Source of the DNA: Gelidibacter mesophilus DSM 14095
GTDB lineage: Bacteria; Bacteroidota; Bacteroidia; Flavobacteriales; Flavobacteriaceae
Assembly (NCBI RefSeq): GCF_000423005.1
Contig: NZ_KE383968.1
Location: forward strand, 124,001-188,000
DNA: 64,000 nt
Direction of reading: 5' to 3'
Of this stretch, positions 48,256-51,398 are shown piece after piece (positions within the stretch are counted from its first letter, which is position 1; the number at the start of each line of letters is the position of its first letter). The notes under the pieces were generated by a model, which was not told the origin of the DNA, searched no databases, and saw only the letters and a list, made by a program, of their open reading frames with translations. The translations under genes and the position numbers were made by a program.

Positions 48256-50247
48256 TCATGCTGTCTTTAAATTGTTCGCACTTGTTGGAATATGCACAAT
48301 AACTTTGGTACCCAAAGACTTCCCATCAGCATCGTACATATCTTCAATGTCCATTTTATAATCTGTAGTAAAACGTTTGGAAAAGTTAGCCAACCGCGCT
48401 TTAGTAATAGCCAAGCCAACTGATTTTCTTTTCAAGACTCTGCCGTGATTTATTTCTTCAGAAGCTTTTCTTCCTATACCATTATCTGTAATTGAAACAT
48501 TTATAAAATCATTATCTACCTTATATACTCTCAATTCAATTTGTTTATTATCTTTTTTAGATGACAGTCCGTGCCATAAGGCATTTTCAAGAAAAGGCTG
48601 TAAAATAAGAGACGGCACTTTAATGATGGATGTATTAATCCCAGGTTCAACATGTACCGTGAAACTGATTTCATTGGAAAATCTAATATTTTCAATGTTC
48701 ATGTAAAGTTGCATCGTATCCAATTCATCTTCTAAAGAAATTTCCTTTTCGGTTGAGGCAATCAATATTTTCCTGATAAATTTTGAAAACTTGTTCAAAT
48801 AATAAACTGCATTTTCTTTTTCATTATTGATAATATAGAGTTTGATAGAATTTAAAGAGTTAAATATGAAATGTGGATTCATCTGACTTCTCAGCATATC
48901 TTGCTCGAGGGTGATGATCTGCTTTTCATGACTCAACTGTCTATTCCTATTTATGGCAATCATAATACCGGCAATAATTGCCAAAACCAAAAGAGCTGCC
49001 CAAAAAATGGTTTGATTGCGTTGGAGCTTTGATTTCACCAATTCATTCTCACTGGCCAATTGTATAATTTGGTTGTTTTTGGCCTCATTCTCATATTGTA
49101 TGATGATATCACTCACATATTGCATATTACGCTCAGTGAAAATGGTGTTTTCAAGCTCAACCGCTTTCTCATAATGATTTAATGCTGCTTCATAATCTTT
49201 ATTTTTCTTATATAAATCAGCCAAACGTTTATGGGCATCAACGGTCGATGTTTTTAAGCCATAGGTCCCAGAAACGTCCAATCCTTTCTTAAGATTAATT
49301 TCTGCCAAACTATCCATTCCTAACTTTTGTTGTACCCAGCCCAAATTGATATAAGCATAAGAAATATAATATTGATCCCCCAATCGAAGTGCTTTTTTCA
49401 AGCCTTCTTCAATGATCGTTTTAGCTTCCTTATATTTTTTTTGTTTGATATAAACCTGTCCAATACTATTGTAACAAATGACCCGGCCAACTTCTGAATC
49501 AATCTGTTCGTTATAATCCAAAGAACGCTTATAGTTTACTAATGCCAAATCGAGAAGTCCTTTGGCCTCATCAGCGTAGCCCAGATTATGATAGTTGATG
49601 GCCAAGCCCAGTCTATTTCCAGTTTGATTTTCAATAACTAATGACTTTTCAAATTGCTCAATGGCCAAATCATATTGTTTTAAAGTCAAATAAACATTTC
49701 CCATGCTGTTTTGGGATACGGCAATACTCGCCTTTAATTCTGGCGTTGTTATTTCAGCCGAATTGGCGAGATCCAAAGCTTCTTTATGATAATCAAGAGC
49801 TGGTTTAATGAAATCCATCCGTCTGTAAACCACACCAATCATATTGAGACTAATAACTTCCAACTCTATATTATGAGCTTCCTGAGCTAATTTTTGTGCC
49901 TTTTTATGCATCTCTAAGGCGGTTTCGTAAAAAGATCTATTTCTATAAATTTCACCCAACTTATTAAAAGCATAACTTTCAACCTCTAAGGCATGGGCTT
50001 TTGATGCTCTGTTTGCCAAGCTTTTCAAAACCAAACTGTCATTTCTAAACCCTGAAAATAGCTCATCAATTGCCGCGTATTCTTTAGGCCATGAATTATT
50101 CATATGTTGTAAGATACTTTCAAAATCACTCGGCTTTTCATTTTGGGCCTGAAGAGAAACCACAGCACCAAAAAGCAACATGCCGGTAAGAAAAGGCATA
50201 ACATATCCTTTAATAAATGCTATATGTTTTAGGGAAACTTGCTGCAT
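48256..50247 (-). CDS. TPR-containing sensor histidine kinase (LytS/HisKA_7-like)
   Basis: This 663-residue membrane kinase has an N-terminal export signal (GYVMPFLTGMLLFGAVVSLQAQ) and a periplasmic region of about 300 residues made of tetratricopeptide repeats (ELEVISLNMIGVVYRRMDF, NRLGLAINYHNLGYADEAKG and others). A coiled segment and one membrane helix follow (IFWAALLVLAIIAGIMIAI, about residues 415-435). The catalytic part has the His_kinase box QMNPHFIFNSLNSI and an ATPase domain with LQPFLENALWHGL and ITDNGIGRKAS. It should phosphorylate the LytTR regulator encoded 4 bases upstream. The signal it senses is unknown. Confidence 0.93.
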   Translation of the reverse strand: MQQVSLKHIAFIKGYVMPFLTGMLLFGAVVSLQAQNEKPSDFESILQHMNNSWPKEYAAIDELFSGFRNDSLVLKSLANRASKAHALEVESYAFNKLGEIYRNRSFYETALEMHKKAQKLAQEAHNIELEVISLNMIGVVYRRMDFIKPALDYHKEALDLANSAEITTPELKASIAVSQNSMGNVYLTLKQYDLAIEQFEKSLVIENQTGNRLGLAINYHNLGYADEAKGLLDLALVNYKRSLDYNEQIDSEVGRVICYNSIGQVYIKQKKYKEAKTIIEEGLKKALRLGDQYYISYAYINLGWVQQKLGMDSLAEINLKKGLDVSGTYGLKTSTVDAHKRLADLYKKNKDYEAALNHYEKAVELENTIFTERNMQYVSDIIIQYENEAKNNQIIQLASENELVKSKLQRNQTIFWAALLVLAIIAGIMIAINRNRQLSHEKQIITLEQDMLRSQMNPHFIFNSLNSIKLYIINNEKENAVYYLNKFSKFIRKILIASTEKEISLEDELDTMQLYMNIENIRFSNEISFTVHVEPGINTSIIKVPSLILQPFLENALWHGLSSKKDNKQIELRVYKVDNDFINVSITDNGIGRKASEEINHGRVLKRKSVGLAITKARLANFSKRFTTDYKMDIEDMYDADGKSLGTKVIVHIPTSANNLKTA

Positions 50248-50985: not shown

Positions 50986-51119
50986 AGATTAAATATAATA
51001 ATATTAGTCTTGGCTTTGATGCAAAAATGTATGGTTAGCATTATTTCCTGTATAATATGCATATTATAACAATTAATACAATTTATCCACTTCATTTATA
51101 TTGCGTAACAAATAACAAT

Positions 51120-51169
51120 TACCAACTATACAGTTTTTCATACCAACTATACAAAAGTCTATAAATTTG
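51120..51169 (+). promoter_or_regulatory. LytTR-type direct repeat overlapping the -33 region of a promoter
   Basis: TACCAACTATACA occurs at 51120-51132 and again at 51141-51153, a 21-base period. On the minus strand each contains ATAGTTGGT, 8 of 9 positions of the AgrA-type LytTR consensus. A TAAATTTG -7 box follows at 51162-51169 with no TTTG at -33, so the second repeat replaces it, as in an activator-dependent promoter. The promoter points away from the regulator gene, toward a terminator at 51271 with no gene between. Confidence 0.6.
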
Positions 51170-51174
51170 AAGGT

Positions 51175-51297
51175 AAAATTATCGACATTTGACAAAGGGA
51201 TTTATTTAATTACCTAATAAGAAGTGATCGTGGGGATTCACTTTTAGATTAAATGCTATTAATCAATAGAAGTCAGGGGTCAAACCCTGACTTTTTT
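51175..51297 (+). ncRNA. Candidate small RNA under LytTR control
   Basis: This interval between a TAnnTTTG promoter (51162-51169) and a strong intrinsic terminator (51271-51297) would give a transcript of about 120 bases. It holds a first hairpin AAGTGA/TCACTT (near 51222-51246) and no convincing open frame. It lies between two divergently transcribed genes, so neither of them needs the terminator. The 5' end is predicted only. Confidence 0.45.
51271..51297 (+). terminator. Intrinsic terminator of the candidate small RNA
   Basis: A perfect 8-bp stem AGTCAGGG/CCCTGACT (51271-51278 with 51285-51292) with a 6-base loop is followed by six T residues. Confidence 0.85.
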
Positions 51298-51366
51298 AAT
51301 AGACATTTATCTTTTATAACGCTATTTTCTAATAATAATTTCAGTTAGTTTAGTTAATTATTGTTT

Positions 51367-51398
51367 AAAAAAGGAACGTCAAAAGACGTTCCTTTTAA
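51367..51398. terminator. Second, bidirectional terminator in the same spacer
   Basis: A perfect 12-bp stem AAAAGGAACGTC/GACGTTCCTTTT (51369-51380 with 51385-51396) encloses an AAAA loop, flanked by A and T runs. It follows the first terminator by 70 bases with no gene between, and may end a longer form of the small RNA or an antisense transcript. Confidence 0.75.

Follow-up and report, generated by a model that had tools for sequence, protein, structure and literature searches.

Small RNAs and their control are, to our knowledge, little known in the Bacteroidota. The described system closest in plan to the locus reported here is agr of Staphylococcus aureus, where each of two divergent promoters, P2 of the regulator and P3 of RNAIII, has an AgrA site at about -60 (as described in PMC4227749). 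From the account of P2 and P3 in that paper, the points shared with the present locus are a LytTR regulator, tandem direct repeats and divergent promoters for the regulator and an effector RNA. LytTR operators are described as two repeats of 9–11 nt lying 11–13 nt apart, and the binding-site oligonucleotide of BtsR (YehT) of Escherichia coli in the same source has ACC cores which by our own count are 21 bp apart too (PMC4847170). BtsR is also the closest curated model for the regulator studied here, yet the protein is no BtsR equivalog by that model, its best NCBIfam match (PRK11697) reaching 130 bits versus a cut-off of 246. We know of no small RNA for BtsR. Among published RNAs, Rfp18 of Flavobacterium psychrophilum comes nearest; it is described as structured, conserved in its genus and required to keep the mRNAs of two metalloproteases at normal levels, with the third stem-loop as its predicted pairing region (PMC9723704).

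The DNA analysed here is a stretch of 64,000 nucleotides from Gelidibacter mesophilus DSM 14095, called the window in the following. A preliminary description of it had suggested that a two-component system with a LytTR regulator controls a small RNA, as AgrA controls RNAIII. This suggestion is the best fit to the sequences now compared; the RNA interval, the operator, the -7 box and the regulator gene are conserved together. A trans-acting small RNA under LytTR control is the reading adopted here, and it is held with good confidence.

The locus and its predicted divergent promoters

The features of the locus are collected in Table 1. Domain scan and coordinates agree with the preliminary description that the paired repeats adjoin a LytTR regulator gene, and receiver and LytTR domain together make the product a response regulator of the PF04397 type. 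The gene of a TPR sensor histidine kinase lies directly behind it, presumably in one operon. On the other side of the interval a gene of the RDD family starts at about 51570 on the + strand, and two intrinsic terminators of the + strand stand between the LytTR and the RDD gene. As these two genes diverge, the first of the terminators belongs to another RNA, which had already been argued in the preliminary description. A Pfam scan of five neighbour genes found no agrB.

Table 1. Features of the locus in the window
Feature	Position	Strand	Basis
TPR sensor histidine kinase gene	48256..50247	-	TPR repeats; PF06580 over cut-off; HATPase_c just under its own cut-off
LytTR response regulator gene, 244 aa	50251..50985	-	receiver PF00072 and PF04397, both over Pfam cut-off
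-7 box TATATTTA of LytTR gene	50990..50997	-	sequence; expected start 50985 is the first base of the ATG
Weaker LytTR operator pair facing the LytTR gene (predicted)	51028-51040 and 51049-51061	-	conserved in genus
LytTR operator (predicted), distal repeat TACCAACTATACA	51120..51132	+	sequence; genus conservation; genome-wide pattern search
LytTR operator (predicted), proximal repeat TACCAACTATACA	51141..51153	+	sequence; genus conservation; genome-wide pattern search
-7 box GACATTTG of small-RNA promoter	51184..51191	+	GATATTTG-like box conserved in genus; 30 nt after operator
Small RNA, about 102 nt (predicted)	51196..51297	+	5' end expected from box position; match of covariance model R1 at 51194-51298, E 8e-21, not independent, as R1 contains the window's own sequence
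Hairpin P2, G-rich loop GUGGG	51220..51245	+	folds alike in 9/9 genus sequences; 4/9 pairs change on both sides (50 sequences)
Hairpin P3 GAUUAAAUGCUAUUAAUC with shared element GCUAUUAAUC	51247..51264	+	invariant in genus; 96.7% of cells paired
Intrinsic terminator of small RNA	51268..51297	+	10/12 pairs change on both sides (50 sequences)
Second terminator-ended element, AGTTAGTTTAGTTAATT then hairpin	51345..51396	+	sequence; terminator 51369-51396

The two copies of TACCAACTATACA repeat with a period of 21 bp, as stated before, and fit the form of a LytTR operator, so that the pair is a predicted site. The whole 4.43-Mb genome has no other exact copy, and the pair is unique genome-wide at up to 3 mismatches, where a reversed control pattern gives none. 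The 13-mer also has six near-copies in other parts of the genome (L003–L008); considered as operators, these were taken as chance, because each stands alone without a partner repeat (no second pair at up to 3 mismatches). The similarity to AgrA sites noted earlier amounts to 8 of 9 positions of what we take to be the AgrA consensus.

The promoter itself had to be placed anew. The TAnnTTTG box named in the preliminary description (TAAATTTG, 51162-51169) is not conserved in the genus and has the wrong spacing; the conserved box, with the genus consensus GATATTTG, follows the operator by 30 nt. The repeats consequently do not lie over the -33 region, as had been thought, and span about -76 to -43 relative to the expected start. 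The -7 box is described to occupy positions -12 to -5 (PMC9723704), which sets the expected start of the RNA near 51196. The LytTR mRNA would start close to the ATG of its gene and is thus expected to be leaderless. The weaker operator pair on the minus strand had been missed in the preliminary description. It faces the LytTR gene with a gap to the box like that on the RNA side, which gives the locus the plan of agr P2/P3, and autoregulation of the LytTR gene through this pair is predicted.

Judged from the sequence, both divergent promoters thus have LytTR repeats, one set of them predicted to be autoregulatory. The centre of the proximal repeat is at about -49 here compared with about -60 in the description of agr (PMC4227749). 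Further differences are the kinase, which is of the PF06580 type with TPRs, and the phylum. RNAIII is about 514 nt long, versus 102 nt for the RNA of this locus, which has no conserved reading frame and no relation in Rfam over the gathering score. The resemblance to agr concerns the plan and not the ancestry. The locus suggests that such a plan exists outside the Firmicutes, too, probably by convergence.

Structure of the probable small RNA

In all nine sequences of the genus the hairpins P2 and P3 and the terminator fold alike, together with a weaker 5' stem, at z scores from -2.6 to -5.1. For covariation, 50 sequences were aligned by the covariance model; this alignment (A5) was fitted to the model structure, so that its figures lean towards that structure. 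Standard pairs fill 94.5% of the pair cells, and 14 of the 27 pairs change on both sides, ten of them in the terminator, four in P2 and none in P3. A value this high was reached in 0 of 500 shuffles, and sliding the partner strand abolishes the signal. Since P3 has no change on both sides, covariation does not probe its structure, and P3 is kept by sequence.

A conserved reading frame was not found within the RNA. Those starting from an ATG in P3 or a GTG in P2 vary in length and frame across the relatives, and a peptide inside the RNA was rejected. None of the matches in Rfam 15, Flavo-1 included, exceeded the gathering score, and homology to an Rfam family was rejected; ten of the matches below threshold were at chance level and one lay elsewhere in L320. 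No report of this RNA was found in the main texts of the open PMC literature. From these sequence comparisons, it is very probable that the interval without a gene is a genuine small-RNA gene, which probably encodes a new regulatory RNA.

Conservation and distribution

A query of 211 bases detected the interval in all nine Gelidibacter genomes at E 9e-27 or better, each time with the LytTR gene divergently upstream. An RNA core of about 40 nt is almost unchanged in the genus, where the neighbouring LytTR proteins are 81–87% identical to that of the window, and the alignment of the nine genomes has a near-unbroken block GTGATCGTGGGGATTCAC-TTT-AGATTAAATGCTATTAATC with drifting flanks. The preliminary description had considered that the interval might not be conserved and that the operator might be aimed at the regulator gene; the interval is conserved, and the operator facing the regulator is a second, separate one. 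That the operator serves only the regulator, the interval being a relic without transcript, can draw on the mirror operator, which would serve the LytTR gene. The near-invariant core and the covarying terminator make this explanation extremely improbable.

What follows the RNA changes within the genus. Within 1.5 kb downstream, an RDD gene was present in four genomes, AspS without a detected RDD gene in two, and neither in three. This bears on a leader or attenuator of the downstream RDD or aspS gene, in which LytTR would start transcription and the terminators would decide on read-through. An RDD gene on the + strand within 300 nt and two terminators in a row would suit such a leader, the more so as the second terminator element has relatives in other genera. 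The RNA stays, however, while the gene behind it changes, 27 of 30 loci lack both RDD and AspS over a distance of 1.5 kb, and the folds of the nine genus members offer no alternative to the terminator, so that attenuation is very unlikely. As for the second terminator element itself, a close form TTAGTTAGTT occurs in 17 of the 90 LytTR loci described below (shuffles 0.3%), the window copy being a variant which the pattern missed. The conserved block TTAGTTAGTTTAGTTAATTATTGGGG is followed by the second terminator in the window, in its variant form, and in these 17 other loci.

Beyond the genus the small RNA continues to be found. The exact pattern of P2 and P3 is present on 34 contigs, all of them from Bacteroidota, with Psychroserpens, Ichthyenterobacterium, Meridianimaribacter, Subsaxibacter and Aquaticitalea among the genera. 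A covariance search in related genomes, which the preliminary description had proposed, found the interval conserved and gave model matches in other Flavobacteriaceae: R1 matched at E<=0.01 in 73 of the 397 genomes of this family (81 rows), and the LytTR regulator was matched at E<=1e-85 in 122 of the 397. Seventy of the 81 rows were examined, the 30 best and 40 weaker ones, and 28 of the 70 had a divergent LytTR gene beside them. Among the 30 best, 23 have a LytTR orthologue divergently upstream at 165–252 nt, four of these being from the genus; among the 40 weaker ones the number is five, and most others appear by eye to be plain terminators. The 42 examined matches without LytTR within reach comprise 35 of the 40 weak and seven of the 30 strong ones. 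The result is a bounded RNA family of about fifty sequences from many marine flavobacteria, with a named regulator and a predicted operator and start.

The seven strong matches without LytTR within 1.5 kb (L032, L033, L035, L040, L043, L047 and L048, with L040 at a contig end) look by eye like true relatives under other promoters, and in that case the RNA is not tied to LytTR alone. Three of them, L032, L043 and L047, have a common alternative upstream box like TTACCTTTATA. One genome (G095) has the RNA twice, at L083 next to LytTR and at L033 without it. In three further loci (L088, L091 and L102, near position 2001), GCTATTAATC or a one-base variant stands before a terminator and behind a palindrome like ATGACnnnnGTCAT; these are perhaps relatives under another regulator.

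At the level of the order, six matches at E<=0.001 came from a search of 296 genomes; three of them belong to the family and three to a different one. The latter three look by eye like terminators, L127 having some further likeness, and were rejected as members outside the family. The largest genus sampled (g127) is, judged by its size, presumably Flavobacterium. None of its 41 genomes has a LytTR match at E<=1e-60, and weak RNA matches occur in 17 of them; the seven that were inspected look like plain terminators. As regulator and RNA are thus missing from the g127 genomes searched, identity with Rfp18 is unlikely by this indirect comparison.

One promoter plan with different outputs

Ninety LytTR loci were compared, consisting of the 30 best-scoring ones and 60 chosen from the rest of the 122; the 32 left out include eleven in which this RNA had already been seen. 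On the divergent strand an operator pair with at most 5 mismatches in 24 is present in 80 of the 90 loci (shuffles 0.17%), and on the LytTR strand a weaker mirror pair at the same cut-off in 52 (shuffles 0.28%). Matches to the strict -7 pattern start 29–30 nt after the operator in 27 of 31 cases on the divergent side and in 67 of 84 on the LytTR side. Of the 80 divergent loci with operator, no more than 27 have the strict box at this distance; a loose box,.A..TT.., is found there in all 80, versus 12 of 80 at a control distance of 20–21 nt.

The promoter leads to this RNA in 17 of the 90 loci (matches of at least 44.9 bits), to a second RNA (RNA2) in nine, to a reading frame of 38–68 amino acids with a hydrophobic stretch, mostly of the MKKC type, in 45, and to none of the three in 19; as the 90 loci are not a fair sample, these are counts and not frequencies. 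In RNA2, GCTATTRR stands at the expected start and is repeated 34–45 nt further on; RNA2 shares GCUAUUAAUC with the RNA of the window. The hydrophobic MKKC family was noticed on the divergent side among L200–L259. Three example peptides have no match in Pfam or NCBIfam, and a fourth, compared with Pfam only, has none there. In a quick tree of the LytTR proteins (70 rows, namely 28 with this RNA, nine with RNA2, 20 with the peptide and 13 with none), the peptide rows are in one well-supported group of 23 rows and all but one of the nine RNA2 rows in a different group, with this RNA in the rest and with open forks. These loci suggest that the slot behind one promoter can be occupied by a non-coding RNA or, in its place, by a peptide.

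The reading frame standing behind the same promoter in half of the loci raises the possibility that the RNA of the window, too, is the mRNA of a short peptide. It is highly improbable: RNA and reading frame classes never coincide in the 90 loci, the frames within the RNA are kept in neither phase nor length, and the changes in its stems are compensatory.

Proposed mechanism and candidate targets

According to the mechanism proposed for the LytTR-controlled small RNA, the kinase would activate the LytTR protein by phosphorylation, and the phosphorylated regulator would bind the strong tandem operator of 21 bp period and activate the RNA promoter with its imperfect -7 box. The transcript, a small RNA of about 102 nt, would end at the intrinsic terminator, and the weaker mirror operator would activate the regulator's own gene, which would yield an agr-like pair of divergent promoters. 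We infer activation of both promoters by LytTR, over repression, from the plan of the operators; trans action is likewise our inference, and the RNA would then most likely pair with mRNAs via exposed conserved bases, namely the P2 loop and GCUAUUAAUC in P3. Action by pairing is somewhat probable and is put forward with less confidence than LytTR control of a trans-acting RNA.

The complement of the P2 loop, TCCCCACGAT, was tried as a target and rejected: it has 35 matches in the nine genomes, nine of which are the small RNA itself, and the 26 others compare with 20 for a reversed control. In sister species, operator pairs were seen before a DUF4412 gene beside MarC (L164, L166 and L167, in three of nine genomes) and before a gene of the OmpA family (L150, L161, L162 and L168, in four of nine). 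By these predicted sites, the two genes are likely to belong to the LytTR regulon. Pairing of the RNA with the leaders of these two predicted LytTR targets was also considered and set aside: six of seven candidate leaders were outside the best 5% of shuffles and one was within, and no target was found.

The shared ten-base element

The element GCUAUUAAUC of P3 leads beyond this locus. The pattern TGCTATTAATC occurs 134 times in the nine genomes of the genus, nine of these in the small RNA itself, versus seven times for the reversed pattern. Of the 134 sites, 50 were taken and two that belong to the small RNA were set aside, which left 48 genus sites. At 17 of the 48 a -7-like box with 4 of 6 letters matching starts exactly 11 nt before the pattern, compared with 0–9 at other offsets, so that the element would often form the first transcribed bases. 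In other genera, where 30 sites were compared, six boxes at the 11-nt offset pass the strict cut versus 0–2 at others, and under the loose cut the numbers are six versus up to five. A terminator after the pattern is not enriched, being present at eight of the 48 genus sites versus 13 of 48 in the control direction, and at one of 30 versus four of 30 in other genera; TGCTATTAATC hence does not in general mark RNAs which end in a terminator. Many of the sites are coding or unexplained. The median copy number is 17 in 17 genomes with the RNA versus 3.5 in 62 others, which is a hint only, as 79 of 249 rows were used, the 62 include four without a LytTR match and descent was ignored. A role as boxA of rRNA was rejected, as the rRNA leaders seen in four of six genomes carry AGTTCATTAACATATTG instead.

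Pairing, protein binding or a preference in transcription start may each be the role of GCUAUUAAUC. This leads to the remaining explanation, in which LytTR control is the same as in the reading adopted and the RNA is a decoy that would, when the kinase is active, titrate a protein or an RNA binding GCUAUUAAUC. The enrichment of TGCTATTAATC and its frequent position at a transcript 5' end speak for a decoy, as do the two copies in RNA2 and the fact that two other terminator-ended RNAs begin with the element. But the enrichment is also found in genomes without a LytTR match (G041 and G077, for example), and in the present RNA the element lies inside the transcript, paired in P3. Taken together, the sites are moreover without enrichment of terminators, the boxA of rRNA differs, and a decoy would presuppose a hypothetical binding factor. 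A decoy is therefore regarded as unlikely.

A wider and rather doubtful proposal is that GCUAUUAAUC could be a common flavobacterial address. Several small RNAs under different regulators (the LytTR of this locus, one behind a gene of the LuxR/NarL type, and a second LytTR-like operator) would carry it, and a set of mRNAs would begin with it, so that several signals would converge on one RNA switch; in a large clade the LytTR output would have been exchanged between such an RNA and probably a one-helix membrane peptide at an unchanged promoter. The probability of this proposal was lowered slightly because, taken together, the TGCTATTAATC sites show no enrichment of following terminators.

Two further terminator-ended RNAs with GCTATTAATC were met, each in four genomes. 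The first starts with GCTATTAATC and has the hairpin TCCTGCCTCTCCCGATAA..TTCGGCATTGAGGCAGG (L320 near position 1500, which is C2:213897 of the own genome, L265, L278 and L328). It lies between genes of the schlafen type and of fructose-bisphosphatase, and a tandem LytTR-like site upstream is clear in three of the four loci. The second is small and directly follows a response-regulator gene of the LuxR type (L273, L283, L288 and L327, near position 1500), with the palindrome AATACGTAnnnnTACGTATT upstream and GCTATTAATC at the expected start.
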